Assembly (NCBI GenBank): GCA_015680905.1
Contig: CM027377.1
Span: 2,690,501-2,754,500, forward strand
Source: Coptis chinensis
Taxonomy: Eukaryota > Streptophyta > Magnoliopsida > Ranunculales > Ranunculaceae
Direction of reading: 5' to 3'
DNA: 64,000 nt
The first letter of the stretch is position 1; each line of letters begins with the position of its first letter. The notes beneath the pieces were generated by a model that saw nothing but the letters and a program-made list of their open reading frames with translations, did no database searches and was not told where the DNA came from. The position numbers and the translations under genes are program-made. Positions 9,381-39,519 of this stretch are shown piece after piece.

Positions 9381-9395
9381 ATCCTGTCAATAACT

Positions 9396-10314: not shown

Positions 10315-10618
10315 GAATTTTTTTATTTTTTATTATTTTTTTTTGTAGTGGATAATAACCTAAGAAAAATAGAAAATGATGACGTTTTTTTTTTTTTTTT
10401 TGTAGTATATACTCTACAAATAAAAGAAAATATTGTTGTTTTTATTGTTGTTATTTTTTTTTATAATATATACTCTTCGAATAAAAGAAAATATTTTTTT
10501 TTTTTTTTATTTTTTTTTTTTTTTGTAGTATATACTCTTCGAACAAAAGAAAATTTTGTTGTTGTTGTTTTTTTTAAGTGGAAATTTTATTGATAATGAT
10601 AACGAGTTTTACAAATAA

Positions 10619-11165
10619 TTAGGACAAGCGTGCAACAAGTTGTGACTCAAGTCCTTTCTGAACGGCAAATCCTATCCTCCTGAATACAAACTCGTTCGAA
10701 CCACCTGTCATTAGGTTGCAGTTCATAACTTTCTGCAATCACTTAAGGAGCTTAACAGATTGTTGTGGCAAGAAACCAAAAGTGTCGAAATTGAACAGAA
10801 TCAAACAATGCTGGTTAGCTTTACAAGCCTCCTCGTGTTTCCAATTCTTACCTGCTGCTGCCTTATTAGTTGCTTCTCCCAACTCAAATACTCCATTCCC
10901 GAGCCGTACCAAAGGAGAGGCTCTAGTTACATCAAAACACGCATGCCACCACACAAACCAACTTTAGACCAATACATCCACAGGCCGAAGTGTTAATCTT
11001 TCCCCATTCGGATCAGTGAAAAAATTCAAGGGAGCCTCTTTTCTTCACTTGTACTCAGATACTCCAAAATGCATCACATAAAATATCCTTTGACATGATC
11101 ATATCGGTATTTGAAACCTGGAAAATGTATACAATGTGTTTGTCAATGATACTCCGGCATGAAAG
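10619..11165 (-). pseudogene. Array unit L1, RT C-terminal domain remnant, subtype C
   Basis: The minus strand encodes a broken version of the endonuclease-like C-terminal domain. It has the subtype C marker: a TAA just after DVLV (actttagac on plus) followed by ccaccacacaaacc. It keeps TGG where several other copies have TAG after the GK. It is the outermost left copy, next to the GGT-rich block. Confidence 0.8.
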
Positions 11166-11974
11166 TTCAAGAAAAGATGTAAAAACTATTATGTACATAT
11201 TATATTAAGTTTCTAATAAGAAATCCTAATTCAATACTACTAGTGTGAGATATCTAGACAATTTTTCACCATAGAAAAGAAAACAAAACTTTGTCACTAA
11301 GTACACTTATTCATAAAAAGCTTTATACAACCTAAAAACTGCGAGTAAATTTTGCTTCCGTGTTCTTACCACCCACAAAAAAAAGGATGCTTTCTCCTCA
11401 AAATGTCAAGAGATGAAGAAAAAATACCTATGAAGCATGAAAAAATTAATTTTTTCAAAGATGGGTTATTTAACATGTCAAAAGATTTCCTAAATATCGA
11501 AGATCGTGGCTTTGTAATGAGGTAGAACATATGGAAGAATGTTTCACAAGGTAGTTAGACCAACACGATTATTCTTTCATGATGGCGAAACTTCAATAGT
11601 GGAAGATCGTTTTTGGAGCTTATAGAGTATTTTCACAAGCCGACCGATATGAGATGGGAATAAGTTCAGTTAGCTTTGCTTTTGTAAGATTTTGATTTGT
11701 TTTATTTTTAAAGATGATTTTTTTTTGTAGTGAATAATCTATGAAAAAAAGAAAATGATTATTTTTTTATAGTTTTTTTTTGTAGTATATACTCTTCGAA
11801 TAAAAGAAAATGTTGTTGTTTTTGTTGTTGTTATTTTTTTTTTTTATTTATAGTATATACTCTTCGAATAAAAGATTTTTTTTTAGTATATATATCTTCA
11901 AATAAAAATGTTGTTGTTGTTGTTGTTTTTTAGTGAAAATTTTATTGATAATGATAACGAAGTTTTACAAATAA

Positions 11975-12524
11975 TTAGGACAAGCGTGCAAGTCAAGTCC
12001 GCGGACACAAGTCCTTTTTCGAACGACAAATCCTATCCTCCCGAATACAAACTTCGTTAGAACCAGTTGTCATTAGGTTGCATTCCATAACTTTCTGCAA
12101 TCACTTAAAGAGCTTAACAAATTGTTGTGCCAAAAACCAAAAGTGTCTAAACCAATGGAATGAAAGAATGCTTTGGGGTTAGCTTTACAAGCCTCCTCGT
12201 GTTTCCAAATCTTTTTCTCGCTGTTGCTTCTATTAGTCGCTTCTCCCAACTCAAATACTCCATTCCCAAGCCCTACCAACGATAGGCTCAAGTTACATCA
12301 AAACACGCATGCTTCCCTTCAAACCAACTGTAGACCAATAAATCCATAGGCCAAAGTGTTAATCTTCCCCATTCGGATCGTTGAAAAAATTCACGGGGCC
12401 TCTTTCTTCACTTATACTCCAGCCTTCTCCAAAATGCATCACATAAAATATCCTTGACATGATCATGTCGGTATTTAAAACATGGAAAATGTATACAATG
12501 TGTTGTCAATGATACTTCGTGCAT
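11975..12524 (-). pseudogene. Array unit L2, RT C-terminal domain remnant, subtype B-like
   Basis: Carries the marker cttcccttcaaaccaactgt, matching right-array units R2 and R5 rather than its neighbours. Several small indels break the frame. The unit is shorter than average (about 1.28 kb) because its non-coding part has lost about 250 bases. Confidence 0.75.
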
Positions 12525-13254
12525 GAATGTTCAAGAAAAGATGTAAAACTATTAAATTTTGCTTAAAGTTTCTAAAAGAAATGCTTTCTAATCAAAATAC
12601 AAGAGTGAAGAAAGAAAATCTAGAGAAAATTTTCATCATACAAAAGGAAACAAGACTTTGTCACTATATGCAACATTCAAAAAGAAAGTTAAAAATATCA
12701 CACCAATCAATGAAAACAAACAAATATCACACAAAAGGAAAAAGATAGCACACCAAATGAGACATGTGCTTTGTCCCGACATTCTTATGTGGTATGTAAG
12801 TGAAAAGTTAATTTTTCAAGATGGGTTTTTAACTTCAACATTCTTGACGAAATCACGGCTTTGTAAATGAGGTAGAACATATGGAAGAATGTTTCACAAA
12901 GTAGTTAGACCAAAATATTCAATTGATGTTAAAAAAGTATGACAGCTAATAGAAGTGCAATAAAAAGATTTTGATTTGAAAATTTTTTTTTTTTTTTTTT
13001 TTTTTGAAGATAATCACACGAAAAAAAAGAAAATGATGATTTTTTTATTATTATTATTTTTTGTAGTATATACTATGTAAAAGAAAAAATTGTTAATTTT
13101 TCAAGATTTCTATTTTTAGTATTACTCTTGAATAAAAAATTTTTTTTTTTTTTTGTAGTATATACTCTTGAAAAAAAGGAAATGTTGTTTTGTTGTTGTT
13201 GGCTTTGTTTTTTATGGAAATTTTATGGATAATGATAATGAGTTTTACAAATAA

Positions 13255-13640
13255 TTAGAAGATCGTTTCGAACGGCAAATCCTATCCTCTGAATTGAAAC
13301 TTCGTTAAACCAATTATAATTTGGTTGTACCATAACTTTCGCAATCACTTAAGGGAGTTTAACATTTGTTATGCCAAGAAACCAAAAGTGCTCAATTGAT
13401 TAAATGAAACAATGCTAGTTAGGTTTACGAGCCTATAGAGTTTCCAAATCTTCCCCTCCCTTATCTATTTGATGTTTCTCCTAACTAAATACTCCAATCA
13501 CAAGCCCTACCAACGGATAGGCTCTAGTTACATCAAAACAGATTTTGATCTGTTTTCCATTTTTAAAAAAAATTCAGGAGCCTCTTTTTTATTTTTTTTT
13601 TCACATTTTTTATCCTTTGATAATGATCATGTCCGTAAAA
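13255..13640 (-). pseudogene. Array unit L3, truncated RT C-terminal remnant
   Basis: The most decayed and shortest unit (about 670 bases). The coding remnant starts at the usual stop but runs into a long A/T homopolymer near 13640-13680, so the RHDHVKD end and the whole non-coding part are missing. Many substitutions set it apart, so it is probably the oldest left copy. Confidence 0.7.
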
Positions 13641-13923
13641 AAAATGAAAAAAAAAAAAAAAAAAAATTTTTTTTTTTTTTTAGTTTTTTTTGTAGTATAT
13701 ACTTTTTTGAATAAAAGAAAATATTGTTGTTTTTTGTTGTTGTTTTTTTTATTTTTTTTTTATTTATAGTATATACTCTTCGAATAAAAGAAAATGTTTT
13801 TTTATTTTTATTTTTGTTTTTTTTTGTATTATATACTCTTCGAATAAAAGAAAATTTTATTGTTGTTGTTGTTGTTTTTTAAGTGGAAATTTTATTGATA
13901 ATGATAACGAGTTTTACAAATAA

Positions 13924-14461
13924 TTAGGACAAGCGTGCAACAAGTTGTGACTCAAGTCCTTTCTGAACGGCAAATCCTATCCTCCAGAATACAAACTCGT
14001 TCGAACCAGCTGTCATTAGGTTGCAGTCCATAACTTTCTGCAATCACTTAAGGAGCTTAACAGATTGTTGTGGCAAGAAACCAAAAGTGTCAAAACTGAA
14101 CGGAATGAAAGAATGCTGGTTAGCTTTACAAACCTCCTCGTGTTTCCAAATCTTCCCTCGCTTCTTCTATTAGTCGCTTCTCCCAACTCAAATACTCCAT
14201 TCCCAAGCCCTACCAATGGAGAGGCTCCAAAGCCTCAAAACACGATGTCTCCCCTCAAACCAACTATAGATCAATACATCCACAGGTAGAGTGTTAATCT
14301 TCCCCATTCGGATCGTGAAAAAATTCACGGAGCCTCTTTCTTCACTTCAGATTCAACTCCGGCCTCCAAAATGCATCACATAAAATATCCTTGACATGAT
14401 CATTTTGGTATTTGAAACATGGAAAATGTATACAATGTGTTGTCAATGATACTCCGTGCAT
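13924..14461 (-). pseudogene. Array unit L4, RT C-terminal remnant, subtype D
   Basis: Shares the marker gtctcccctcaaaccaacta with right unit R7. TGG is kept after GK, but indels break the frame. The full-length non-coding part follows to about 15390, including the antisense-looking segment found in every complete unit. Confidence 0.75.
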
Positions 14462-15439
14462 GAATGTTGAAGAAAAGATGTAAAAACTATTAAGTGCATA
14501 TTATTATATTAAGTTTCTAAGAAGAAATCCTAATTCAAATACTAGTATGAGATTTCTAGATAATTTTCATCATAGAAAAGGAAACAAGACTTTGTCACTA
14601 AGTACACTTATTCATAAAGAAGCTATATACAACCTAAAAACTGTGTAAATTTTGCTTCAAGTTCTTACCACCCCCAAACAGAAGGATGCTTTCTCCTCAA
14701 AATGTCAAGAGATGAAGAAAAAAAATACATGTGAAGCTTGAGAAAAAATTCAGCCAACATCAAGGAAAAAAAGTGTGTCGAAAGCACAATATGCAACATG
14801 TCAAAAGAAAGTTAAAAATATGACACCAATCAATGAAAACAAACAAATATCACACAATAGGAAAGAGATAGCACAACAAATGAGACATGTGCTTTTGTCT
14901 GACACTCCTACGTGGTATGTAACGTGAAAAAGTTAATTTTTTCAAGATGGGTTTTTAACTTCAGATTTCCTAGACGCGAAGATCGTGGCTTTGTAATGAG
15001 GTAGAACATATGGAAGAATGTTTCACAAGGTAGTTAGACCAACACGTATATTCCTGAATTGATGGTACAAACTTCAATAGTGGAAGTTGTTTGGAGCTTA
15101 TAGAGTAGTTGCACGCCGATTTGTATTTGAGAAGAATAAGTTTAGTTAGCTTTGTTTTGTTAGATTTTGATTTGTTTTATTTTTTTGTGGTTTTTTTTTT
15201 TTTTTTAATTTTAAGTGTTTTAAAAAAAAAAAATGATTTTTTTTTTTTTTATTTTTTAGTTTTTTTTTTAGTATATACTCTATGAATAAAAAAAGAAAAT
15301 ATTGTTGTTTTTATTGTTGTTATTTTTTTATTTTTTTTATTTATAGTATATATACTCTTCAAATAAAAGAAAATTTTGTTGTTGTTGTTGTTTTTTAAGT
15401 GGAAATTTTATTGATAATGATAACGAGTTTTACAAATAA

Positions 15440-15976
15440 TTAGGACAAGCGTGCAACAAGCTGTGACTCAAGTCCTTTCTGAACGGCAAATCCTATCCTC
15501 CTGAATACAAACTCGTTCGAACCACCTGTCATTAGGTTGCAGTCCATAACTTTCTGCAATCACTTAAGGAGCTTAACAGATTGTTGTGGCAAGAAACCAA
15601 AAGTGTCGAAACTGAACAGAATGAAACAATGCTGGTTAGCTTTACAAGCCTCCTCGTGTTTCTAAATCTTACATGATGCTGCCTCATTAGTTGTTTCTCC
15701 CAACTCAAATACTCCATTCCCGAGCCGTACCAACGGAGAGGCTCTAGTTACATCAAAACACGCATGCCACCACACAAACCAACTTTAGACCAATACATCC
15801 ACAGGCCGAAGTGTTAATCTTCCCCATTCGGATCGTGAAAAAATTCACGGAGCCTCTTTCTTCACTTGTACTCCAAAATTCCAAAATGCATCACATAAAA
15901 TATCCTTGACATGATCATATCGGTATTTGAAACATGGAAAATGTATACAATGTGTTGTCAATGATACTCCGCGCAT
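15440..15976 (-). pseudogene. Array unit L5, RT C-terminal remnant, subtype C
   Basis: Matches L1, L7, R3 and R6 in the actttagac stop and the ccaccacacaaacc marker, and has TAG after GK. With L4 it forms a two-unit block that resembles L6-L7, suggesting a dimeric higher-order repeat on this side. Confidence 0.8.
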
Positions 15977-16997
15977 GAATGTTCAAGAAAAAGATGTAAA
16001 AACTATTAAGCATATATTATATTAAGTTTCTAATAAGAAATCCTAATTCAATACTAGTGTGAGATTTCTAGACAATTTTTTCATCATAGAAAAGGAAAAA
16101 AAACTTTGTCACTAAGTACACTTATTCATAAAGAAGTTTTATACAACCTAAAACTGTGTAAATTTTGCTTCAAGTTCTTACCACCCCAAACGGAAGGATG
16201 CTTTCTCCTCAAAATGTCAAGAGATGAAGAAAGAAAATACCTATGAAAATGAGAAAAAAAATTCAGCTAACATCATGCGGCAAAAGTGTGTCCAGCACAA
16301 TATGTAACATGTCAAAAGAAAGTTAAAAATATCACACCAATCAATGAAAACAAACAAATATAACACAATAGGAAAGAGATAGCACACCAAATGAGACATG
16401 TGCTTTTGTCCGACACTCTTACGTGGTATGTACATGAAAAGTTAATTTTTCAAGATGGGTTTTTAACTTCAGATTTCCTAGATGAAAGATCGTGGGCTTT
16501 GTAATGAGGTAGAACATATGGAAGAATGTTTCACAAGGTAGTTAGACCAACACGATATTCTGAATTGATGGCGAAACTTTTAATAGTGGAAGCCGTTTGG
16601 AGCTTATAGAGTATTGCACGCGATCAGATTTGAGCGTAATAAGTTCGCTTAGCTTTGCTTTTGTTAGATTTTGATTTGTTTTATTTTTTAAGGTAGATTT
16701 TTTTATTTTATTTTTTTTTGTAGTGGATAATCTACAAAAAAAAAAATGAAAATGATTTTTTTTTTTAGTTTTTTTTTTTAGTATATATATACTTTGAATA
16801 AAAAGAAAATGTTGTTGTTTTATTGTTGTTATTTTTTATTTTTTTTTATTTATAGTATATACTCTTCCTAATTTATTTTTATATTTATTTTTTGTATTTG
16901 TATATATACTCTTCAATAAAAAGAAAATTTTATTTGTTGTTGTTGTTGTTTTTAAGTGGAAATTTTATTGATAATGATAACGAAGTTTTACAAATAA

Positions 16998-17533
16998 TTA
17001 GGACAAACGCGGCAACAAGTCATGGACTCAAGTCCTTTCTCGAACGACAAATTTTATCCTCCGAATACAAACTCGTTATAACCCGGGCTGTCATTAGGTT
17101 GCATTCCATAACTTTCTGCAATCACTTAAGGAGCTTAACAGATTGTTGTGCCAAAAAAAAAGTGTCAAAACCGAACGGAATCAAAGAATGTTGGTTAGCT
17201 TTACAAACCTCCTCGTGTTTCCAAATCTTCCCCATGCGCTCTATTAGTCGCTTCTCCCAACTCAAATGCTCCATTCCCAAGCCCTACCAACGAGAGGCTC
17301 CAGTTACATCAAAACACGATGCTTCCCCTCAAACCAACTATAGACCAATACATCCACAAAGGGCGTGTTAATCTTCCCCATTCGGATCGAGTGAAAAAAT
17401 TCACGGAGCCTCTTTCTTCACTTGTACTCAAAACCTTCCAAAATGCATCACATAAAATATCCTTGACATGATCATGTCGGTATTTGAAACATGGAAAATG
17501 TATAAAATGTGTTGTCAATGATACTCGCGGCAT
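16998..17533 (-). pseudogene. Array unit L6, RT C-terminal remnant, subtype D-like
   Basis: Marker gcttcccctcaaaccaacta, close to L4. Small indels scramble the frame after DAFW. It pairs with L7 in the L4-L5 / L6-L7 dimer pattern. Confidence 0.75.
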
Positions 17534-18520
17534 GAATGTTCAAGAAAAGATGTAAAAACTATTAAGTACATATTATATTAAGTTTCTAAGAAGAAATCCT
17601 AATTCAATACTAGTGTGAGATTTCTAGACAATTTTCATCATAGAAAAGGAAACAAGACTTTGTCACTAAGTACACTTATTCATAAAGAAGCTATATACAA
17701 CCTAAAAATCTGCGTAAATTTTGTTTCAAGTTCTTACCACCCCAAAACGTAGGATGCTTTCTCCTCAAAATGTCAAGAGATGAGGAAAAAAAAATACCTG
17801 TGAAGCTTGAGAAAAAATTCAGCCAACACTGCGGCAAAAAGTGTGTCAAGCACAATATGCAACATGTCAAAAGAAAGTTAAAAATATGACACCAATCAAT
17901 GAAAACAAACAAATATCACACAATAGGAAAGAGATAGCACAGCAAATGAGACATGTGCTTTTGTCTGGACACTCCTACGTGGTATGTACGTGAAAAATTA
18001 ATTTTTTCAAGATGGGTTTTCTAACTTCAGATTTCCTAGACGAAGATCGTGGCTTTGTAATGAGGTAAAACATATGGAAGAATGTTTCAAAAGGTAGTCA
18101 GACCAACACGTATATTCTGAATTGATGGCGCAAACTTCAATAGTGGAAGTTGTTCGGAGCTTATAGAGTAGTGCACGCGACTGTATTTGAGAAGAATAAG
18201 TTCAGTTAGCTTTGATTTTGTTAGATTTTGATTTGTTTTATTTTTAAAGTGGTTTTTATTTTATTTTTATTTTATTTTTAGTGGATAATAACCAACGAAA
18301 AAAAGAAAATGATGATGATGATGATTTTTTTTTTTTTTTTTTTTTAATTTTTTTGTAGTATATACTGTATGAATAAAAGAAAATATTGTTGTTTTTATTG
18401 TTGTTATTTTTTTATTTTTTTTATTTATAGTATATATACTCTTCAAATAAAATTTTTTTTTGTTGTTGTTGTTTTTTAAGTGGAAATTTTATTGATAATG
18501 ATAACGAGTTTTACAAATAA

Positions 18521-19060
18521 TTAGGACAAGCGTACAACAAGTTGTGACTCAAGTCCTTTCTGAACGGCAAATCCTATCCTCCTGAATACAAACACGTTCT
18601 AACCACCTGCCATTAGGTTGCAGTCCATAACTTTCTGCAATCACTTAAGGAGCTTAACAGATTGTTGTGGCAAGAAACCAAAAGTGTCGAAACTGAACAG
18701 AATCAAACAATGCTGAATAGCTTTACAAGCCTCCTCGTGTTTCTAAATCTTACATGCTGCTGCCTCATTAGTTGTTTCTCCCAACTCAAATACTCCATTC
18801 CCGAGCCGTACCAACGGAGAGGCTTTAGTTACATCAAAACACGCATGCCACCACACAAACCAACTTTAGACCAATACATCCACATGCCGAAGTGTTAATC
18901 TTCCCCCATTCGGATCAGTGAAAAAATTCACAAGAGCCTCTTTCTTTACTTGTACTCTCACCCTCCAAAATGCGTCACATAAAATATCTTTGACATGATC
19001 ATATCGGTATTTGAAACCTGGAGAAGGTATACAATGTGCTGTCAATGATACTCCGTGCAT
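18521..19060 (-). pseudogene. Array unit L7, RT C-terminal remnant, subtype C, innermost left copy
   Basis: Reads HGVSLTAHC, FKYRYDHVKDILCDAFW and NFFTDPNGGRLTLR before the shared TAA after DVLV. Like R3 and R6 it has the ccagg version of the segment before FKYRYD. Its inner junction at about 20020 is the mirror image of the junction beside R1. Confidence 0.85.
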
Positions 19061-20026
19061 GAATGTCCAAGAAAAGATGTAAAAACTATTAAGCATATAT
19101 TATATTAAGTTTCTAAGAAGAAATCCTAATTCAAATACTAGTGTGAGATTTCTAGACAATTTTTTCATCATAGAAAAGGAAACAAAACTTTGTCACTAAG
19201 TACACTTATTCATAAAGAAGCTTTATACAACCTAAAAATGTGTAAAAATTTTGCTTCAAGTTCTTACCACCCCCAAACAGAAGGATGCTTTCTCCTCACA
19301 ATGTCAAGAGATGAAGAAAGAAAATACCTATGAACCTTGAGAGAAAATTTAGCTAACACTACGGCAAAAAGTGTGTTGAGCAGAATATGTAACATGTCAA
19401 AAGAAAGTTAAAAATATCACACCAATCAATGAAAACAAACAATTATAACACAATAGGAAAGAAATAGCACACCAAATGAGACATGTGCTTTTGTCTGGAC
19501 ATTCTAACGTGGTGTGTCAAGATGGGTTTTTTAACTTCAGATTTCCAAGATGAAGATCGTGGCTTTGTAATGAGGTAGAACATATGGAAGAATGTTTCAC
19601 AAGGTAGTTAGACCAACACATATATTCTGAATTGATGGCGCAAACTTCAATAGTGGAAGCTGTTTGGAGCTTATAGAGTATTGCACGCGACTGTATATGA
19701 GCAGAATAAGTTCAGTTAGCTTTGCTTTTGTGAGATTTTGATTTGTTTTATTTTTAAATGTTTTATTTTTTTTTTATTTTTTTATGTTTTATTTTTTTGT
19801 AGTTGATAATCTACGAAAAAAAGAAAATTATGATTTTTTTTTTAATTTATTTTTATATTTTTTTTTGTAGTATATACTCTTCGAATAAAAGAAAATATTG
19901 TTGTTTTTGTTGTTGTTATTTTTTATTTTTTATTTATAGTATATACTCTTTGAATAAAAGATTTTTTTTTTTTTTTTTGAATATATACTCTTCAAATAAA
20001 AGAAAATGTTGTTGTTGTTGTTGATA

Positions 20027-21181
20027 TATTTATAGTATGCACTCCCCGATTATCTTTTTCAATCAGGTTCACAGAAAATCCAATTTTTCTTAGTTTGTAA
20101 TACAATAGAATATTCAAGGCACACAATATTCAAGGCTCAAGAAAGGAAAGGAAGGCTTGGATAAGAAGGTATTAGTACTTAAGCAAAATGTTCAGAGATT
20201 TAAGTTTCGGATTTCAAATCGATTGCCTCGTCGAGTTCAATGAGATTTCTACTAATGAGGTATAATCACCACGCTGGCGGTTAATAACCATTTAGAAGGC
20301 TATGATGTTTGAATCAAGGGAGAAAATGGCACTCATGTGAGGTAGGCTTAGGCTTGCAATAGATTTATGAATAAACAATTTTTTAAACATTGTTTCCTGT
20401 ACTTATATAACTGTGGTTACATTGATTTGTTTTTGGGTTATTTAGACTTTGGTACCACTTTTTATACCGATATTAGGAAATAGTACCAAATTTCAAAAAA
20501 ATTAGGAAATTGTACCACTTCTGTCAGTTGACCGAGTTGACTAAAGTCAAACTGTTTCAATCTGTTCAGATTTTCATAATGTCCACAATACCCTCAGGGT
20601 TTTTTATACTTTGGTACCACTTTTTAGACCGATATTAGGAAATAGTACCAAATTTCAAAAAATAGGAAATAGTACCACTTTGATGGACCAAGTCGCGACT
20701 GCTCACAAAACATGCATGCCCGAAGTTAAATAATTTCTCCTTCGGTATTTCGGCCCTTTATACTTTCGATATTTACCATGCCAAATGTTCATTCCGAATC
20801 ATTTGCCATCTTTACAAAAAAGATTTAGGCCGAACATCAAGAGACAAGGTAGTCGTGTAAATGTGTAATTGACATGCCGTATTATCATTTTGGGCGGGCC
20901 TAAACCTTGATACAACCGAACACGGCTTTCTAAACTATTTATTTATTTTTCCCAAAAGAATTGAATTTTTAAATCAAGAAGAAACCTTTTAGTTACAAAA
21001 GGAGACGAGATGTTTAGATTATGAGGAAAACTTGGGATGTTGAGAATAGGATCAAAGTTTATGAAGCGAGAAAAATTGAATATCAATAGTGAAACCAAGA
21101 AACGCCGTCCTCCTCGTGAGTTAACCGCCTAACCGCAATGTAGCGAAGGAGGAGATGACCGTGTGCTTTGTTGTGTTTATG
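20027..21181 (+). repeat. Left inverted-repeat arm (partner 23189-24330)
   Basis: Reverse complement of 23189-24330 over its whole length, from the array junction (gtatgcactccccgattatc) to ggaggagatgaccgtgtgct. Internal indels are few. Each arm contains two direct copies of a ~95-bp sequence with tttggtaccactttttagac and gatattaggaaatagtacca (left arm at about 20447-20540 and 20595-20690). No reading frame of note. Confidence 0.95.
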
Positions 21182-21299
21182 AAAGGTAATTACCCCTTTG
21201 TACGAAGTTAAATCACCTTTGATAATCGGGTAGTAGTAAAAGTAAAATTAAAAATGTCCCTTGTTTATTATGGGAGCTTCCTTCTTTATGGATTTAGAT

Positions 21300-24330: not shown

Positions 24331-24373
24331 ACAACAACAACAACATTTTCTTTTATTTGAAGAGTATATACTA

Positions 24374-24408
<35 letters not shown>

Positions 24409-25852: not shown

Positions 25853-26049
25853 TTATTTGTAAAACTCGCTATCATTATCCATAAAATTTCCACTTAAAAA
25901 ACAACAACAACATTTTCTTTTATTCGAAAAGTATTAACTACAAAAAAAAAAAAAAAAAAAAAAAATCTTTTATTCGAAGAGTATATACTACAAAAAAAAA
26001 TAAAAAAAAAAAATCATTTTCTTTTTTTTTTTTCATAGATTATCCACTA

Positions 26050-26094
<45 letters not shown>

Positions 26095-26789
26095 AAATCT
26101 CACAAAAGCAAAGCTAACTGAACTTATTCTGCTCAAATACAGTCGCGTGCAATACTCTATAAGCTCCAAACAGCTTCCACTATTGAAGTTTGCACCATCA
26201 ATTCAGAATATACGTGTTGGTCTAACTACCTTGTGAAACATTCTTCCATATGTTCTACCTCATTACAAAGCCACAATCTTCGTCTAGGAAATCTGAAGTT
26301 AAAAAACTTATCTAGAAAAAATTAACTTTTCACGTACATACCACGTAGGAGTGTCCAAACAAAAGAACATGTCTCATTTGGTGTTCTATCTCTTTCCTAT
26401 TGTGTGATATTTGTTTGTTTTCATTGATTGGTGTCATATTTTTAACTTTCTTTTGACATGTTGCATATTGTGCTCGACACACTTTTCGTCGCAGTGTTGG
26501 CTGAATTTTTTCTCAAGCTTCACAGGTATTTTCCTTCTTCACCTCTTGACATTTTGAGGAGAAAGCATCCTTCTGTTTGGGGGTGGTAAGAACTTGAAGC
26601 AAAATTTACACAGTTTTTAGATTGTATATAGCTTCTTTATGAATAAGTGTACTAAGTGACAAAGTCTTGTTTCATTTTCTATGATGAAAATTGTCCAAAA
26701 ATCACACACAAGTATTCGAATTAGGATTTCTTCTTAGAAACTTAATATAATATGTACGCAATAGTTTTTACATCTTTTCTTAAACATTC

Positions 26790-27328
26790 ATGCACGGAGT
26801 ATCATTGACAACACATTGTATATATTTTCCATGTTTCAAATACCGACATGATCATGTCAAGTATATTTTATGTGATGCATTTTGGAGGGCTGGAGTACAA
26901 GTGAAGAAAGAGGCTCATGTGAATTTTTTCACTGATCCGAATGGGGGAGGATTAACACTTCGCCCTGTGGATGTATTGGTCTACTGTTGGTTTGAAGGGA
27001 AGCATGCGTATTTTGATGTAAATGGAGCCACTCTGTTGGTAGGGCTTGGGAATGGAGCATTTGAGTTGGGAGAAGCAGCTAATAGAGCTGCAACAGGGAG
27101 ATTTGCAAACACGAGGAGGCTTGTAAAACTGACCAGCATTCTTCCATTCCGTTCGGTTTCGACACTTTTCGTTTCTTGGCACAACAATCTGTTAAGCTCC
27201 TTAAGTGATTCCAAAAAGTTATGGAATGCAACCTAATGACAACTGGTTCTAACAAGTTTGTATTCAGGAGGATAAAATTTGCCGTTCAGAAAGGACTTGC
27301 GTCACAGCTTGTTGCACGTTTGTCCTAA
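26790..27328 (+). pseudogene. Array unit R2, RT C-terminal domain remnant, subtype B
   Basis: A 148-codon open frame from 26790. After ANRAATGR a one-base deletion compared with R1 shifts the frame, so the tail (TRRLVKLTSI) is not the family sequence. The endonuclease-like block is kept but FDVTG reads FDVNG. Confidence 0.85.
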
Positions 27329-28313
27329 TTATTTGCAAAACTCGTTATCATTATCAATAAAATTTCCACTTAAAAAACAACAACAACAACATTTTCTTTT
27401 ATTCGAAGAGTATATACTACAATATATATATTTTTTTTCCGGAGAGTATATACTATAAATAAAAAAATAAAAAAATAACAACAATAAAAACAACAACATT
27501 TTCTTTTATTCGAAGAGTATATACTACAAAAAAAAACTATAAAAAAATAATCATTTTCTTTTTTTCGTAGATTATCCACTACAAAAAAAAAATCCTATTT
27601 AAAAAAAAACAAATCAAAATCTCACAAAAGCAAAGCTAACTGAACTTATTCTTTCCAAATCAAATACAACAAGTGCAAAACTCTATAAGCTCCAAACAAC
27701 TTCCCTCTTGAAGTTTACGCCATCAATTCAGAATATACGTGTTGGTCTAACTACCTTGTGAAATATTCTTCCATATGTTCTACCTCATTACAAAGCCACG
27801 ATCTTCGTCAAGGAAATCTGAAGTTAAAAAACCCATCTTGAAAAAATTAACTTTTCACGTACATACCACGTAAGAGTGTCCAGACAAAAACATATGTCTC
27901 ATTTGGTGTGTTATCTCTTTCCTATTGTGTGATATTTGTTTGTTTTCATTGATTAGTGTGATATTTTTAACTTTCTTTTGACTTGTTACATATTGTGCTC
28001 AACACACTTTTTGCCGCAATGTTAGCTGAATTTTTTCTCATGCTTCATATGTATTTTCTTTCTTCATCTCTTGACATTTTGAGGAGAAAGCATCCTTATG
28101 TTTGTGGGTGGTAAGAACATGAAGCAAAATTTACGCAGTTTTTAGGTTGTATAAAGCTTCTTTATGAATAAGTGTACTTAGTGACAAAGTTTTGTTTTCT
28201 TTTCTATGGTGAAAATACTGTCTAGATATCTCACACTAGTATTCGAATTAGGATTTCTTATTAGAAACTTAATATAATATGTACGCAATCGTTTTTACAT
28301 CTTTTCTTGAACA

Positions 28314-28856
28314 TTTATATACGGAGTATCATTGACAGCACATTGTATACATTTTACAGGTTTCAAATACCGATATGATCATGTCAAGGATATTTTATGT
28401 GATGCATTTTGGAGGGCTGGAGTACAAGTGAAGAAAGAGGCTCCTGTGAATTTTTTCACTGATCCGAATGGGGGAAGATTAACACTTCGGCCTGTGGATG
28501 TATTGGTCTAAAGTTGGTTTGTGTGGTGGCATGCGTGTTTTGATGTAACTAGAGCCTCTCCGTTGGTACGGCGCGGGAATGGAGTATTTGAGTTGGGAGA
28601 AACAACTAATGAGGGAGCAGCATGTAAGATTTAGAAACACGAAGAGGCTTGTAAAGCTAACCAGCATTGTTTGATTCTGTTCAGTTTCGACACTTTTGGT
28701 TTCTTGCCACAACAATCTGTTAAGCTCCTTAAGTGGTTACAGAAAGTTATGGACTGCAACCTAATGGCAGGTGGTTCAAACGAGTTTGTATTAAGGAGGA
28801 TAGGATTTGCCATTCAGAAAGGACTTGAGTCACAGCTTGTTGCACGCTTGTCATAA
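28314..28856 (+). pseudogene. Array unit R3, RT C-terminal domain remnant, subtype C
   Basis: Has the subtype C TAA after DVLV, and the ATG of other copies is changed to ATA. It is the only right copy with TGG, not TGA, before LQKVMDCN, so 28671-28856 is open through the natural end QLVARLS. Confidence 0.85.
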
Positions 28857-29031
28857 TTATTTGTAAAACTCGTTATCATTATCAATAAAATTTCCACTTA
28901 AAAAACAACAACAACAAAATTTTCTTTTATTCGAAGAGTATATATACTAAAAAAAAAAAAATAAAAAATAACAACAATAAAACAACAATATTTTCTTTTA
29001 TTCAAGAAACAACAATATACTACAAAATAAA

Positions 29032-29068
<37 letters not shown>

Positions 29069-29828
29069 ATCATTTTTTTTTTTGGTTGGTTATTATCCAC
29101 TACAAAAAAACCACTTTTTAAAATAAAACAAATCAAAATCTAACAAAATCAAAGCTAACCGAACTTATTCTTCTCAAAAACATACGTGCACTACTCTATA
29201 AGCTCAGAACAACTTCCACTATTGAAGTTTGCCCATCAATTCAGAATATAACGTGTTGGTCTAACTACCTTGTGAAACATTCTTCCATATGTTCTACCTC
29301 ATTACAAAGCCACGATCTTCATCTAGGAAATCTGAAGTTAGAAAACCCATCTTGAAAAAATTAACTTTCCACGTACATACCACGTAGGAGTGTCCAGACA
29401 AAAGCAAATGTCTCATTTGTTGTGCTATTTCTTTCCTATTGTGTGATATTTGTTTGTTTTCATTGATTGGTGTCATATTTTTAACTTTCTTTTGACATGT
29501 TGAATATTGTGCTCGACACACTTTTTGCCGCAGTGTTGGCTGAATTTTTTCTCAAGCTTCACAGGTATTTTTTTTCTTGATCTCTTGACATTTTGAGGAG
29601 AAAGCATCCTTCTGTTTGGGGGTGGTAAGAACTTGAAGCAAAATTTACGCAGTTTTTAGGTCGTATATAGCTTCTTTGTGAATAAGTGTACTTAGTGACA
29701 AAGTCTTGTTTCCTTTTCTATTATGAAAATTATCTAGAAATCTCATACTAGTATTCGAATTAGGATTTCTTCTTAGAAACTTAATATAATATGTACGCAA
29801 TAGTTTTTACATCTTTTCTTGAACATTC

Positions 29829-30368
29829 ATGCACGGAGTATCATTGACAACACATTGTATACATTTTTCATGTTTCAAATACCGACATGATCATGTCAAT
29901 GATATTTTATGTGATGCATTTTGGAATGCTGGAGTACAGGTGAAGAAAGAAGCCCCAGTGAATTTTTTCACTGATTCGAATGGGGGAAGATTAACACTTC
30001 GGCCTGTGGATGTATTGGTCTACAGATGGTTTGAGGGGAAGCATGCGTGTTTTGATGTAATTGGAGCCACTCCGTTGGTAGGGCTTGGGAATGTAGTATT
30101 TTTGTTGGGAGAAGCAGCTAGTAGAGCAGCAACAGGGAAGATTTAGAAACACAAGGAGGCTTGTAAAGCTAACCAATATTGTTTCATTCCGTTCAATTTC
30201 GACACTTTTGGTTTCTTGGCACAACAATCTGTTAAGCTCCTTAAATGATTGCAGAAAGTTATGGACTGCAACCTAATGACAATTGGTTCTAACGAGTTTG
30301 TATTCAGTAGGATAGAATTTGCCGTTCAGAAAGGACTTGCGTCACAACTTGTTACACGTTTGTCCTAA
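29829..30368 (+). pseudogene. Array unit R4, RT C-terminal domain remnant, subtype A
   Basis: Near twin of R1 one trimer (about 4.5 kb) away: the same cagatggtttgaggggaagc marker, the same TAG after GKI and a 105-codon open frame. Differences include DVIGATPL in place of DVTGATPL. Confidence 0.85.
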
Positions 30369-31302
30369 TTATTTGTAAAATTCGTTATCATTATCCATAA
30401 AATTTTCACTTAAAAAACAACAACAACAACAACATTTTCTTTTATTCGAAAAGTATATACTACAAAAAAAAAAAAAAAAAAAATCTTTAATTCGAAGAGT
30501 ATATACTACAAAAAAACTATATATAAAAAAAAATATATATCATCATTTTAATTTTTTCGTAGATTATCCACTACAAAAAAAAAACACTTTAAAAATAAAA
30601 CAAATCAAAATCTCACAAAAGCAAAGCTAACTGAATTTATTCTGCTCAAATACAGTCGCGTGCAATACTCTATATGATCCAAACAGCTTCCACTATTGAA
30701 GTTTGCACCATCAATTCAGAATATACGTGTTGGTCTAACTACCTTGTGAAACATTCTTCCATATTTTCTACCTCATTACAAAGCCAAAATCTTCGTCTAG
30801 GAAATCTGAAGTTAAAAAACCCATCTAGAAAAAATTAACTTTTCACGTACATACCACGTAGGAGTGTCCAAACAAAAGAACATGTCTCATTTGGTGTGCT
30901 ATCTCTTTCCTATTGTGTGATATTTGTTTGTTTTCATTGATTGGTGTCATATTTTTAACTTTCTTTTGACATGTTGCATATTGTGCTCGACACACTTTTC
31001 GCCGTAGTGTTGGCTAAATTTTTTCTCAAGCTTCACAGGTATTTTTTTTCTTCATCTCTTGACATTTTGAGGAGAAAGCATCCTTCTGTTTGGGGGTGGT
31101 AAGAACTTGAAGCAAAATTTACACAGTTTTTAGATTGTATATAGCTTCTTTATGAATAAGTGTACTAAGTGACAAAGTCTTGTTTCCTTTTCTATGATAA
31201 AAATTGTCTAAAAATCTCACACTAGTATTCGAATTAGGATTTCTTCTTAGAAACTTAATATAATATGTGCGCAATAGTTTTTACATCTTTTCTTGAACAT
31301 TC

Positions 31303-31841
31303 ATGCACGGAGTATCATTGACAACACAGTGTATACATTTTCCATGTTTCAAATACCGACATGATCATGTCAAGGATATTTTATGTGATGCATTTTGGAG
31401 GGCTAGAGTACAAGTGAAGAAAGAGGCTCCCGTGAATTTTTTCACTGATCCGAATGGGGGAGGATTAACACTTCGGCCTGTGGCTGTATTGGTCTACAGT
31501 TGGTTTGAAGGGAAGCATGCGTGTTTTGATGTAACTGGAGCCACTCTGTTGGCAGGGCTTGGGAATGGAGCATTTGAGTTGGGAGAAGCAGCTAATAGAG
31601 CTGCAACAGGGAGATCTGGAAACACGAGGAGGCTTGTAAAGCTGACCAGCATTCTTTCATTCCGTTCTGTTTCGACACATTTCGTTTCTTTGCACAACAA
31701 TCTGTTAAGGTCCTTAAGTGATTGCAGAAAGTTATGGAATGGAACCTAATGACAACTGGTTCTAACGAGTTTGTATTCAGGAGGATAAAATTTGCCGTTC
31801 AGAAAGGACTTGCGTCACAGCCTTTTGCACGTTTGTCCTAA
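31303..31841 (+). pseudogene. Array unit R5, RT C-terminal domain remnant, subtype B
   Basis: Twin of R2: a 148-codon open frame with the same one-base deletion after ANRAATGR and the same tataTATA-rich junction downstream (near 31935). It keeps FDVTGATLL. Confidence 0.85.
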
Positions 31842-32839
31842 TTATTTGTTAAACTCGTTATCATTATCAATAAAATTTCCACTTAAAAAACAACAACAAC
31901 AACATTTTCTTTTATTCGAAGAGTATATACTACAATATATATATATTTTATTCGGAGAGTATATACTATAAATAAAAAAATAAAAAAATAACAACAATAA
32001 AAACAACAACATTTTCTTTTATTCGAAGAGTATATACTACAAAAAAAAACTATAAAAAAAATAATCATTTTCTTTTTTTTCGTAGATTATCCACTACAAA
32101 AAATAAATAAAAAAAAATCCTCTTTAAAAATAAAACAAATCAAAATCTCACAAAAGCAAAGTTAACTGAACATATTCTGCCCAAATACAGTCACGTGCAA
32201 TACTCTATAAGCTCCAAACAGCTTCCACTATTGAAGTTTGTGCCATCAATTCATAATATACGTGTTGGTCTAACTACCTTGTGAAACATTCTTTCATATG
32301 TTCTACCTCATTACAAAGCCACGATCTTCGTCAAGGAAATCTGAAGTTAAAAAACCCATTTTGAAAAAATTAACTTTTCACGTACATACCACGTAAGAGT
32401 GTCCAGACAAAAGCACATGTCTCATTTGGTGTGCTATCTCTTTCCTATTGTGTTATATTTGTTTGTTTTCATTGATTAGTGTGATATTTTTAACTTTCTT
32501 TTGACATGTTACATATTGTGCTCGACACACTTTTTGCCGCAGTGTTAGCTGAATTTTTTCTCATGCTTCATAGGTATTTTCTTTCTTCATCTCTTGACAT
32601 TTTGAGGAGAAAGCATCCTTCTGTTTGTGGGTGGTAAGAACCTGAAGCAAAATTTACGCAGTTTTTAGGTTGTATAAAGCTTCTTTATGAATAAGTGTAC
32701 TTAGTGACAAAGTTTTGTTTTCTTTTCTATGGTGAAAAAATTGTCTAGATATCTCACACTAGTATTCGAATTAGGATTTCTTATTAGAAACTTAATATAA
32801 TATGTACGCAATAGTTTTTACATATTTTCTTGAACATTC

Positions 32840-33379
32840 ATGCACGGAGTATCATTGACAGCACATTGTATACATTTTCCAGGTTTCAAATACCGATATG
32901 ATCATGTCAAGGATATTTTATGTGATGCATTTTGGAGGCCTGGAGTACAAGTGAAGAAAGAGGCTCCTGTGAATTTTTTCACTGATCCGAATGGGGGAAG
33001 ATTAACACTTCGTCCTGTGGATGTATTGGTCTAAAGTTGGTTTGTGTGGTGGCATGCGTGTTTTAATGTAACTAGAGCCTCTCTGCTGGTACGGTGCGGG
33101 AATGGAGTATTTGAGTTGGAAGAAACAACAAATGAGGTAGCAGCATGTAAGATTTAGAAACACGAGGAGGCTTGTAAAGCTAATCAGCATTGTTTGATTC
33201 TGTTCAGTTTCGACACTTTTGGTTTCTTGCCACAACAATCTGTTAAACTCCTTAAGTGATTGCAGAAAGTTATGGACTGCAACATAATGGCAGGTGGTTC
33301 GAACGAGTTTGTATTCAGGAGGATAGGATTTGCCGTTCAGAAAGGACTTGAGTCACAGCTTGTTGCTCGCTTGTCCTAA
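32840..33379 (+). pseudogene. Array unit R6, RT C-terminal domain remnant, subtype C
   Basis: Twin of R3 and cousin of left units L1, L5 and L7: TAA after DVLV, the tttgtgtggtggcatgcg marker and the HFPGFKYRYD variant. It has the common TGA before LQKVMDCN, which R3 lacks. Confidence 0.85.
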
Positions 33380-34366
33380 TTATTTGTAAAACTCGTTATC
33401 ATTATCAATAAAATTTCCACTTAAAAAACAACAACAACAAAATTTTCTTTTATTCGAAGAGTATATATACTATAAATAAAAAAAAAAAAAATAACAACAA
33501 TAAAAACAATAATATTTTCTTTTATTCGTAGAGTATATACTACAAAAAAAACTAAAAAAAAAATAAAATAAAAAATAAAAAATAAACATCATCATTCTCT
33601 TTTTTTCGTTGGTTATTATCCATTACAAAAATAAAAATAAAAATAAAAAAACACTTTAAAAATAAAATAAATCAAAATCTAACAAAAGCAAAGTTAACTG
33701 AACTTATTCTTCTCAAATACAGTCCCGTGCACTACTCTATAAGCTCCAAACAACTTCCACTATTGAAGTTTGCGCCATCAATTCAGAATATACGTGTTGG
33801 TCTAACTACCTTGTGAAACATTCTTCCATATGTTCTACCTCATTACAAAGCCACGATCTTCGTCTAGGAAATCTGAAGTTAGAAAACCCATCTTGAAAAA
33901 ATTAACTTTTCACGTACATACCACGTAGGAGTGTCCAGACAAAAGCACATGTCTCATTTGCTGTGCTATCTCTTTCCTATTGTGTGATATTTGTTTGTTT
34001 TCATCGATTGGTGTCATATTTTTAACTTTCTTTTGACATGTTGCATATTGTGCTCGACACACTTTTTTCCTTGATGTTGGCTGAATTTTTCTCAAGCTTC
34101 ACGGTATTTTTTTTTTCATATCTTGACATTTTGAGGAGAAAAGCATCCTTCCGTTTGGGGTGGTAAGAACTTGAAGCAAAATTTACGCAGTTTTTAGGTT
34201 GTATATATAGCTTCTTTATGAATAAGTGTACTTAGTGACAAAGTCTTGTTTCCTTTTCTATGATGAAAATTATCTAGAAATCTCACACTAGTATTCAATT
34301 AGGATTTCTTCTTAGAAACTTAATATAATATGTACGCAATAGTTTTACATCTTTTCTTCAACATTA

Positions 34367-34905
34367 ATGCACGGAGTATCATTGACAACACATTGTATAC
34401 ATTTTCCATGTTTCAAATGCCAACATGATCATGTCAAGGATATTTTATGTGATGCATTTTGGAATCTTTGGAGTACAAGTGAAGAAAAGAGGCTCCGTGA
34501 ATTTTTCACCGATCCGAATGGGGAAGATTAACACTTCGGCCTGTGGATGTATTGATCTATAGTTGGTTTGAGGGGAGACTTGCGTGTTTTGAGGTAACTG
34601 GAGCCTCTCCGTTGGTAGGGCATGGGAATGGAGTATTTGAGTTGGGAGAAGCAGCTAATAGAGCAGCAGCAGGGAAGATTTGGAAACACGAGGAGGTTTG
34701 TAAAGCTAACCATCATTCTTTCATTCCGTTCAGTTTTGACACTTTTGGTTTCTTGGCACAACAATCTGTTAAGCTCCTTAAGTGATTGCAGAAAGTTATG
34801 GACTGCAACCTAATGACAGCTGGTTCGAACGAGTTTGTATTCTGGATGATAGGATTTGCCGTTCAGAAAGGACTTGAGTCACAGCTTGTTGCACGCTTGT
34901 CCTAA
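34367..34905 (+). pseudogene. Array unit R7, RT C-terminal domain remnant, subtype D
   Basis: Indels disrupt the first third. From 34543 to 34785 the frame is open through YSWFEGRLACFEVTG, KIWKHEEVCKAN and FIPFSFDTFGFLAQQSVKLL, the longest in-frame run of the C-terminal half in the array. It has TGG after GKI like left unit L4. Confidence 0.85.
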
Positions 34906-35943
34906 TTATTTGTAAAACTCGTTATCATTATCATTAAAATTTCCACTTAAAAAACAACAACAACAACAATAAAATTTTCTTTTATTCGAAGAGTATATAC
35001 TACAAAAAAAAAAAAAAATAAAAAAAAAAAACATTTTCTTTTATTCGAAGAGTATATACTATAAATAAAAATAAATAAATAAAATAACAACAATAAAAAC
35101 AACAATATTTTCTTTTATTCGAAAAGTATATACTACAAAAAAAACTATAAAAAAAAAAAAAAAAAATCATCATTTTCTTTTTTTCGCAGGTTATTATCCA
35201 CTACAAAAAAAAAAAAAAAAAAAAAAAATAAAAAAATAAAACAAATCAAAATTTAACAAAAGCAAAGCTAACTGAACTTATTCTACTCAAATACAGTCGC
35301 GTGCACTACTCTATAAGCTCCAAACAAATTCCACTATTGAAGTTTGCGCCATCAATTCAGAATATACGTGTTGGTCTAACTACCTTGTGAAACATTCTTC
35401 CATATGTTCTACCTCATTACAAAGCCACGATCTTCATCTAGGAAATCTGAAGTTAAAAAACTCATCTTGAAAAAATTAACTTTTCACACACATACCATGT
35501 AGGAGTGTCCAGACAAAAGCACATGTCTCATTTGGTGTGCTATCTATTTCCTATTGTGTGATATTTGTTTGTTTTCATTGATTGGTGTGATATTTTTAAC
35601 TTTCTTTTGACATGTTGCATATTGTGCTCGACACACTTTTCGCCGCAGTGTTGGCTGAATTTTTTCTCAAGCTTCACAGGTATTTTCTTTCTTCATCTCT
35701 TGACATTTTGAGGAGAAAGCATCCTTCTGTTTCGGGGTGGTAAGAACTTGAAGCAAAATTTACGTAGTTTTTAGGTTGTATATAACTTCTTTATGAATAA
35801 GTGTATATAGTGACAAAGTCTTGTTTCCTTTTCTATGATGAAAATTATCTAGAAATCTCACACTAGTATTCGAATCAGGATTTCTTCTTAGAAACTTAAT
35901 ATAATATGTACGCAATAGTTTTTACATCTTTTCTTCAACATTC

Positions 35944-36486
35944 ATGCACGAAGTATCATTGACAACACATTGTATACATTTTCCAGGGTTTAAATACCGA
36001 CATGATCATGTCAAGGATATTTTATGTGATGCATTTTGGAAGGCTGGAGTGCAAGTAAAGAAAGAGACTCCCGTGAATTTTTTCACTGATCCGAATGGGG
36101 GAAGATTAACACTTCGCCCTGTGGATGTATTGATCTACAGTTGGTTTGAGGGGGACATGCGTGTTTTGATGTAACTGGAGCCTATCCGTTGGTAGGGCTT
36201 GTGAATGGAGTATTTGAGTTAGGAGAAGCAGCTAATAGAGTAGCAGTAGGGAAGATTTGGAAACACGAGGAGGCTTGTACGTAAACCTAACTAGCATTGT
36301 TTCATTCCGTTCAGTTTCGACACTTTTGGTTTCTTGGCACAACAATCTGTTAAGCTCCTTAAGTGATTGCAGAAAGTTATGGACTGCAACCTAATGACAG
36401 CTGGTTCTAACGAGTTTCAATTCAGGAGGATAGGATTTGCCGTTCAGAAAGGACTTGCTTCACAGCTTGCTACATGCTTGTCCTAA
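35944..36486 (+). pseudogene. Array unit R8, RT C-terminal domain remnant, subtype D variant
   Basis: Open from ATG 35944 to 36174, then a one-base loss in gagggggacatgcg shifts the frame. It has an insertion (acgta) in the lysine-rich stretch near 36280. It is the outermost complete right unit. Confidence 0.85.
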
Positions 36487-36526
36487 TTATTTGTAAAACT
36501 CATTATCATTATCCATAAAATTTCCA

Positions 36527-36563
<37 letters not shown>

Positions 36564-36586
36564 GCAACAACAACAAAAACAATAAC

Positions 36587-36618
36587 ATTTTCTTTTTATT
36601 GGAAGAGTATATACTACA

Positions 36619-36649
<31 letters not shown>

Positions 36650-37165
36650 TATTTTCTTTTTATATATATTATCCACTTTTTTTCGTAAAAAAAAAAAAAA
36701 AAAAACCTTTAAAAAATAAAACAAATCAAAATCTCACAAAAGCAAAGCTAACTGAACTTATTCTGCTCAAATACAGTCGCGTGCACTACTCTATTAGCTC
36801 CGAACAGCTTCCATTATTGAAGTTTGCGCCATCAATTCAGAATATACGTATTGGTCTAACTACTTTGTGAAACATTCTTCCATATGTTCTACCTCATTAC
36901 AAAGCCACGATCTTCGTCAAGGAAATCTGAAGTTAAAAAACCCTTCTTGAAAAAATTAACTTTTCACTTACATACCACGTAAGAGTGTCCAGACAAAATC
37001 ACATGTCTCATTTGGTGTGCTATCTTTTTCCTATTGTGTGATATTTGTTTGTTTTCATTGATTGGTGTGATATTTTTAACTTTCTTTTGACATGTTGCAT
37101 ATTGTGCTAACACACTTTTCGCCGCAGTGTTGGCTGAATTTTTTCTCAAGCTTCACAGGTATTTT
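36587..37165 (+). repeat. Partial array unit R9 (non-coding part only)
   Basis: Starts like the other units and runs to the cttcacaggtatttt landmark at about 37165, then breaks off into minisatellite. The coding remnant is missing, so this is the outer truncation of the right array. Confidence 0.8.
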
Positions 37166-37185
37166 ATTTCTTTTATATGTTCTGG

Positions 37186-37545
37186 AAAAAAAAATCTTTT
37201 ATTCGAAGAGTATATATTACAAAAAAAAAAAATAAATAAATAAATAAATATAAATACAAAACCAACATCTTCTTTTATTCGAAGAGTATATAAAAAAAAA
37301 AAAAAAAAAAAACAATATTTTCTTTTATTCGAAGAGTATATACTACAAAAAAAATTAATAATAAAAAAAAACCTACATTTTCTTTTATTCGAAGAGTACT
37401 ACAAAAAAAAACATTTTTTTTTATTCGAAAATTATATACTACCAAAAAAAAAACCAATATTTTTTTTTATTTGAAGAGTATATACAACCAAAAAAAAAAA
37501 AAAACCAACATTTTCTTTTATTCGAAGAGTATATACTTCAAAAAA
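37186..37545 (+). repeat. Minisatellite of the junction motif, seven copies
   Basis: Seven copies of ttttattcgaagagtatata plus tactac, spaced 35-75 bases by A runs, near 37196, 37271, 37321, 37381, 37424, 37465 and 37512. The same motif occurs two to four times at every unit junction in both arrays. Here it has expanded on its own at the array edge. Confidence 0.85.
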
Positions 37546-37631
37546 AAAAAAGAAGTTATATGAACTTGCTCAGCTTTCAGAGTATACCATTCGGAGCAAT
37601 CTTAAAGCTATTTGGGGTATTTCAAAACCCT

Positions 37632-38175: not shown

Positions 38176-38397
38176 TCTATATCTTAATATTAAAGCTCCC
38201 ACAAGGGGTATTTTTCGAGCTCTATTAAAATTTCACGACATCTCCTATTAAAACGAGAATTTTTCTCCTATTTGAAAAACGGGAATTTCTTTTCTATTAT
38301 AACGAGAATTATTCTCCTATTAAAACAAATTCTAACACTTTTAATTAAAGCGGGAATTGTCCCATATAGTTCCCCCGAAAAAACAATAATGCTTTAG

Positions 38398-39490: not shown

Positions 39491-39519
39491 GTTGGTTGTA
39501 GTTTTTATATCACTTTCCC

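Follow-up and report, generated by a model that had tools for sequence, protein, structure and literature searches.

How did a 27-kb palindrome built of two tandem arrays come to lie in the genome of Coptis chinensis, and is it a mobile element or a rearrangement of repeats? We analyzed the 64,000-nucleotide stretch that contains it (hereafter, the window), located at C1:2690501-2754500 of a 935.6-Mb assembly in 116 contigs. The complex is most likely not a new mobile element but a rearrangement of repeats. It probably represents two copies of a composite, retroelement-derived macrosatellite block that were joined head-to-head by an end-joining rearrangement.

Self-comparison of the window confirmed that the palindrome is present in the assembly. 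Two oppositely oriented arrays of ~1.5-kb units (Table 1) surround inverted arms of ~1.15 kb (~20023-21185 and 23188-24329) and a 2-kb spacer. A first-pass annotation of this DNA had described the arrays, the arms and a mirrored junction between them, all of which were confirmed here, with the correction that the arrays do not face each other: in the sense of the open frame of the unit, both point outward from the center, the left one on the minus strand and the right one on the plus strand. The two arms aligned with 1086 identical and 32 mismatched columns, and 36 gap events accounted for a further 67 columns. The mirroring of the array-to-arm junction extends through the first minisatellite spacer of ~290 bp (266 identical, 7 mismatched, and 43 gap columns), and inverted similarity runs on at 89.0% as far as 13743/30532. 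Kilobase-long inverted matches such as these are far beyond chance.

The center of the complex had been taken for unique DNA, which it is not. The genome was searched with the arm and with the spacer, 40 candidates being scored per search. The 1081-bp arm query gave 50 matches, 10 of them full-length and two of those in the window (40 of 310 candidates scored), and at least 1987 of the 1991 bp of the spacer were matched at three places, one of which is in the window (best 40 scored). Positions 1-335 and 336-1081 of the arm query were found apart from each other elsewhere in the assembly. The latter part and the initial ~1180 bp of the spacer form one dispersed element, 2.2-2.7 kb in length, whose long inverted ends start GGGTTATTTAGACTT. 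What had been called an arm is a 412-bp segment (hereafter, armA) plus one end of this element, and the spacer consists of the remainder of the same element plus part of a further region (hereafter, region U).

The dispersed element has long terminal inverted repeats. Its left end is 751 bp long, and its right end corresponds to the first 363 bp of the left end, inverted, at loci L009, L010, L011, L013, L015, L017, and L018, and to the first 210 bp in the copy at L021. Inspected by eye, five of the six array-linked copies with both ends are flanked by an identical 9-bp target-site duplication, and each of two dispersed copies has 8/9 matching bases; the sixth array-linked copy (L021) has the same target site, with 8 bp. 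Target-site duplications of 9 bp are a hallmark of Mutator-like elements, and on this basis we classified the element as a Mutator-like element (MULE). Given the target site common to the array-linked copies, the MULE probably entered before the block multiplied. A possible kelch-like fragment in the L014 copy of the MULE (4075-4608) matched Kelch_FKB95 (E 0.0099); its 16 bits fall short of the curated cutoff of 70. A PRP39-like frame in region U (L013, 1242-1631) did not hold as a Pfam assignment (E 0.071, below the curated cutoff) and had no PDB match. Both could be fragments of host genes captured in the block.

The same parts recur in the same order elsewhere in the assembly. Nine cores outside the window were compared, on C15, C18, C37, C52, C64 (two), C83, and C85 (two), contigs of 113-245 kb, and in all of them region U, the MULE, the 412-bp segment, an A-rich minisatellite, and 1.5-kb units follow one another. 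All nine are one-sided in 10-kb stretches, with units on one side and none for at least 2.5 kb on the other. Each has one armA, which is incomplete in the C52 core and in one of the two C64 cores, and the C52 arm is more diverged (80-84% identical to the other arms). Region U is 90-96% alike among six loci. A deletion form of region U and the MULE occurs at L014 (C85) and L016 (C64), L012 has part of that deletion, and the left half of the palindrome carries the L014/L016 form. A unit at L016 belongs to the variant that unites the window units L1, L3, L6, R3, and R6 (support 1.000).

C85 and C64 each carry a pair of cores in equal orientation: those of C85 lie at 25.9 and 46.1 kb, a distance of 20 kb, and those of C64 at 157.6 and 190.9 kb, a distance of 33 kb, with the intervening DNA read in part. 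A second unit type, 1.27 kb long, is arrayed between the paired cores on both contigs. The 1.5-kb array of C85 breaks off in a partial unit, matches to the second type start ~136 bp on, and a piece of region U follows; on C64, the second-type array adjoins the region U there, and the far side of the C83 core shows where a second-type array begins or ends. The bodies of the two unit types are unrelated, both types end in oligo(A), and a motif close to TCTTTTATTCGAAGAGTAT follows the oligo(A) at five of the eight ends of the 1.27-kb unit and is found in the spacers of the 1.5-kb units as well. Taken as a whole, the block runs from region U (which holds a possible host gene fragment) through a non-autonomous MULE, the 412-bp segment, and the A-rich minisatellite into the 1.5-kb array, and on C85 it continues into an array of the second unit.

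In the window, the left half of the palindrome tracks L014 up to 23176, and 11 bp of filler separate it from the right half, whose first base, 23188, falls within the MULE end. The junction pattern had one match in the whole assembly with up to three mismatches allowed (control, 0). A 12-mer at the junction, TATTGATATTCA, is echoed 102 bp downstream of its junction copy, suggesting that the filler was templated. This is suggested rather than certain, because 12-bp echoes within 300 bp are found by chance at 477/33500 window positions outside the complex (1.4%) and at 187/4100 positions in its core (4.6%). Such fillers fit error-prone end joining (the polymerase theta pathway). We propose that a break in region U of one block would have been joined to a break inside the MULE end of another block, or of a sister copy, in opposite orientation, that error-prone end joining would have left the 11-bp filler, and that the two arrays would then have diverged separately; the junction is presumably present in the plant as it is in the assembly.

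According to the first-pass annotation, a mobile element would be indicated if the whole unit recurred with target-site duplications, and a local rearrangement if it occupied a single locus. The junction pattern occurs once, the nine other cores are one-sided within their 10-kb stretches, and no target-site duplication was found at the outer ends; by this distinction the complex comes out as a rearrangement of a recurrent block. The outer ends were compared by exact words in 220-bp flanks, with words nearly all A or all T skipped and imperfect duplications not sought, and no target-site duplication was detected: the flanks share two 8-mers, neither of them at both boundaries. Inverted similarity of the outer flanks was not detected either, the best alignment scoring 27 against a shuffle mean of 24.5 and maximum of 35 (40 shuffles).

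The arrays differ from each other in the number and order of their units. Eight full units and a truncated ninth make up the right array, and four full units, two shortened ones, and one fragment the left. The core length of the 12 full units is 1264-1290 bp, and the listed spacers between units measure 193-297 bp, except for one gap of 952 bp in the left array. A doubled trimer is evident in the right array (R1/R4 95.0%, R2/R5 96.2%, and R3/R6 95.7% identical, vs a neighbor mean of 91.7%), and this pattern stops after R6 (R4/R7 92.4%, R5/R8 92.7%). The left inner units alternate, those two apart being the closest among L1-L4 (L1/L3 94.3%, L2/L4 92.7%). The arrays are thereby tandem monomers with a higher-order pattern, as in satellites and macrosatellites.

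A mirrored order of units was considered and rejected: mirror pairs averaged 92.36% identity vs 91.64% for all 32 left-right pairs (L1-L4 by R1-R8), and a shift of three gave a higher value, 92.55%. After L3, unit L1 is nearest to R6 (94.2%), and its identity to R1 is 92.0%. Since the innermost left and right units are not best partners, the mirror is clear for the arms and the first spacer only. The first-pass annotation held that the arrays kept changing after the palindrome arose, and independent change of the two arrays was supported here. Arrays of this kind would gain and lose units through unequal crossing-over and through conversion of one unit by another, and the A-rich minisatellite is a likely place for such exchange. 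A search of the assembly with the unit returned 5778 first-look candidates; of the best 40, which were scored, 5 are in the window and 35 on other contigs (C15, C18, C28, C32, C37, C52, C64, C75, C83, C85, and C96). Matches to the first part of the unit begin at its first or second base in all 26 listed cases at other loci and in 14 of 15 within the window.

As to the source of the unit, its last ~575 bp hold a reading frame, FKYRHD...KKEAPVNFF...LRPVDVLVY...FDVTG, followed by a conserved end and oligo(A). We take CCHC followed by RHD...RP.D...DVT in a 3′ part to be the C-terminal restriction-like endonuclease end of an R2-like non-LTR (long terminal repeat) element, and by this reading of motifs the unit would derive from an R2-like non-LTR retroelement. 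A solitary copy of the same 3′ end lies at 42.3 kb in the window, and its A-rich tail is without a motif close to TCTTTTATTCGAAGAGTAT. A broken retroelement left of the arrays retains a reverse-transcriptase fragment with four weak PDB matches to R2-type or reverse-transcriptase-like proteins (E 0.015-0.052). It may also take in part of 8848-10314, with a presumed start near 9.3 kb that has a zinc-finger-like motif, and upstream of it purine-rich DNA reaches the left array end near 10.3 kb. The endonuclease motifs were seen in the units and in the solitary copy, and a single element with both reverse transcriptase and endonuclease was not seen. Pfam and PDB gave no match for the 3′ part of the array, a protein search with one open reading frame of the unit gave 72 candidates of which none was significant, a PDB search with a profile of that frame gave 0 matches up to E 10, and Rfam gave 0 matches. 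A structure model had a pLDDT (predicted local distance difference test) score of 33 and was not used, and none of these tests confirmed the endonuclease.

The frame is not kept as a protein. Across 27 units, 13 from the window (L5 left out) and 14 near-full ones from eight other loci, variable sites were alike at the three codon positions (292/253/234), and variation per column was higher in the endonuclease-like part than in the non-coding part (1.46 vs 1.14). Coding selection on the endonuclease-like part was ruled out by this absence of codon-position bias. We propose no cellular function for the arrays, as neutral turnover explains the data.

The relationship of the two arms bears on whether one block was duplicated or two were joined. 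They were compared with eight other arms, the divergent C52 arm being set aside. The window arms share three substitutions (counted) and a TTA insertion (seen in the alignment) that are in none of the eight, and IQ-TREE paired them with an ultrafast bootstrap of 88. Several observations weigh against the joining of two blocks as proposed here, or against close kinship of the arms. FastTree did not pair the window arms, and both have long private branches, so that each has a higher identity to the C18 arm (95.2 and 95.0%) than to the other window arm (92.4%). Two other pairs of arms share nine and six private sites, vs three for the window pair, and some sites group one window arm with the C64 arms. 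Many of the differences between the arms are clustered indels, which could be assembly error. A stretch of 7.5 kb upstream of the first C85 core matches no block part and no unit, and extended series of blocks in head-to-tail order are thus not demonstrated. Units on C37 occur in both orientations (56754, plus; 159681 and 164311, minus); orientation switches are therefore not confined to the window, and there may be another one on C37. The nine other cores are known from contigs without chromosomal placement. Finally, the octamer TCAGCTTT is mirrored at both ends of the complex (10309-10316 and 37570-37577), with similar sequence following, which is unexplained.

From the arm identities, the private branches, the FastTree result, and the counts of private sites, a simple local inverted duplication is not favored over the joining of two different blocks. 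Either a duplication of one block or a joining of two related blocks that was followed by conversion may account for the arms. The first-pass annotation had the array end and its flanking unique DNA inverted and duplicated together: the mirrored junction agrees with this, the flanking DNA is not unique, and common descent of the arms (or later gene conversion) is plausible but not proven.

Other explanations of the palindrome have to be weighed against this. An assembler could have misjoined two inverted repeat blocks that are not adjacent, and the apparently high copy number of the parts (as in the unit search), the limited length of the contigs with the other cores (113-245 kb), and clusters of indels in the arms and left units, which suggest an imperfect consensus, would all suit such an artefact. 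A filler with a nearby echo is not expected from a misjoin, though the chance rate of echoes in the core tempers this point, and we regard a misjoin as unlikely without dismissing it. A hairpin-read artefact was rejected, as 32 substitutions and 36 gap events separate the arms and the order and number of units are not the same in the two arrays. Tandem repeats in inverted arms of unequal length around a spacer, and the mirrored octamer at both ends, are also what a giant foldback-type DNA transposon with tandem repeats in its long inverted ends (like FB, Galileo, and Tetris) would offer. Yet the junction pattern occurs once, the nine relatives are one-sided, and neither an outer target-site duplication nor common inverted ends were found in the 220-bp flanks; the transposon that does have a target-site duplication is the small central MULE. 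The foldback reading was rejected on these grounds, and we see hardly any chance that it is correct.

The arrays themselves might have been built up as non-autonomous retroelement copies inserted one after another, each targeting the A-rich tail or minisatellite of the copy before it, the palindrome then being two founder arrays. Two unit types with unrelated bodies, both oligo(A)-ended and both associated with the tail motif, would suit this process, as would the retroelement 3′ end in the 1.5-kb unit, and specific repeats are the insertion sites of most retroelements that have a restriction-like endonuclease, according to PMC4640811. However, separate insertions should leave variable 5′ truncations, and the uniform starts of the units favor unequal crossing-over instead; the trimer shows that groups of units were duplicated, and the motif is absent from the solitary copy and from three of the eight ends of the second unit. 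We consider repeated insertion quite improbable, and we give just as little weight to its wider form, in which an R2-like retroelement of flowering plants would act as a self-targeting satellite factory, its non-autonomous copies inserting head-to-tail into its own A-rich tail motif, with the palindrome as a rearranged outpost. The head-to-head joining of two blocks is the explanation that we prefer.

The complex can be set beside several known systems, as far as the available sections of the cited sources describe them. The satellites of Lathyrus sativus derive from the 3′ untranslated regions of Ogre elements (PMC7004042), and the present arrays are like them in that the monomer comes from a retroelement 3′ part and the number of units varies. 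They are unlike them in that the source appears to be non-LTR and R2-like rather than LTR, the monomer is 1.5 kb long, and the arrays are set within a block with a MULE, with a second unit on two contigs, and inverted in the window. Tetris (PMC4079207) and Galileo (PMC3573991) likewise have tandem repeats in unequal inverted arms around a spacer; in contrast, no mobility signature was found for the present complex, which has its junction pattern once, and its units are about seven times longer than the ~220-bp repeats of Tetris (PMC4079207). In its long inverted ends and its 9-bp target-site duplications, the central element (2.2-2.7 kb) resembles Mutator-like elements (PMC9168764). Unlike whole elements of this group, it is one component of a block and is truncated in the window to one long and one short piece. 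Points of likeness to the R2 group of non-LTR retrotransposons (PMC4640811) are the weak PDB matches of the reverse-transcriptase fragment, to R2-type or reverse-transcriptase-like proteins, and the CCHC and RHD motifs as we read them; unlike in that group, reverse transcriptase and endonuclease were not seen in one element, and the 3′ part of the array has no Pfam or PDB match. The literature found on elements with a restriction-like endonuclease, in its available sections, describes none in a flowering plant.

At the outer end of the right array, 22 bp at 37161-37182 weakly resemble the tail of the second unit type (E 0.019). A degenerate stretch at 38400-39500 on the plus strand, which may be membrane-domain exons of a DEK1-like calpain gene, is followed by an RNase H frame at 39865-40401 (RVT_3, E 2.7e-10). 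Frames of host families nearby encode a nucleotide-diphospho-sugar transferase (1272-1802, minus), an MFS/sugar transporter (45070-46323, plus), and a flavin amine oxidoreductase (47635-48273, minus). The units of two minisatellites, at 38241-38358 and 54854-55025, share a ATTCTCCTATTAAAA-like core in opposite orientation.

Table 1 Features of the palindromic complex and related sequences. Positions are those of the window unless a locus is named.
Feature	Position	Strand	Details
Reverse-transcriptase fragment of broken retroelement	7447-8031	-	RVT_1, E 1.2e-12
Left array	10315-20022	-	Self-comparison; units separated by oligo(A) and A-rich minisatellite
Left outer units	Fragment 13540-13215; L5 12928-11932; L6 11695-10576	-	
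Left units	L1 19741-18478; L2 18231-16954; L3 16674-15397; L4 15170-13881	-	
Left first spacer	19742-20022	-	Oligo(A)/AAC and motif TTTTATTCGAAGAGTATATACTAC; mirrored at 24330-24614
Left armA, 412-bp segment of recurrent block	20023-20434	-	Ends with 9-bp MULE target-site sequence TTTGTTTTT (20426-20434)
MULE left end	20435-21185	+	Begins GGGTTATTTAGACTTTGGTACCAC
MULE interior	21186-22369	+	Right end deleted, as in C85 (L014) and C64 (L016)
Region U, part	22370-23176	+	Matches L014 and L016 up to 23176
Palindrome junction, 11-bp filler	23177-23187	.	12-mer TATTGATATTCA at 23179 and again at 23281 in right arm
Right arm, inverted copy of MULE left end	23188-23915	-	Cut at palindrome junction
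Right armA	23916-24329	+	
Right array	24330-37172	+	Starts with first spacer, then units R1-R9
Right units	R1 24615-25895; R2 26092-27371; R3 27614-28899; R4 29133-30411	+	
Right units	R5 30605-31884; R6 32140-33422; R7 33672-34948; R8 35246-36529; R9 36726-37172	+	R9 truncated
Example of retroelement 3′-end part of unit	25320-25895	+	FKYRHDHVKDILCDAF...LRPVDVLVYRWFEGKHACFDVTG, then oligo(A); no codon-position bias
Outer minisatellite of right array	37173-37551	+	
Solitary copy of retroelement 3′ end of unit	42261-42920	-	CCHC-like stretch upstream; A-rich tail
Second-type 1.27-kb arrays	L022 1-6313; L023 1584-5501		

Satellites derived from retroelements are a known kind; what is surprising here is the composite block and the tail motif common to two unit types. 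The locus shows that a plant satellite block can draw on more than one transposable element, here a MULE and the 3′ end of a retroelement, and a single end-joining event may make such a one-way array palindromic. For the origin of the arrays, the tail motif common to the two unit types is a concrete place to look.

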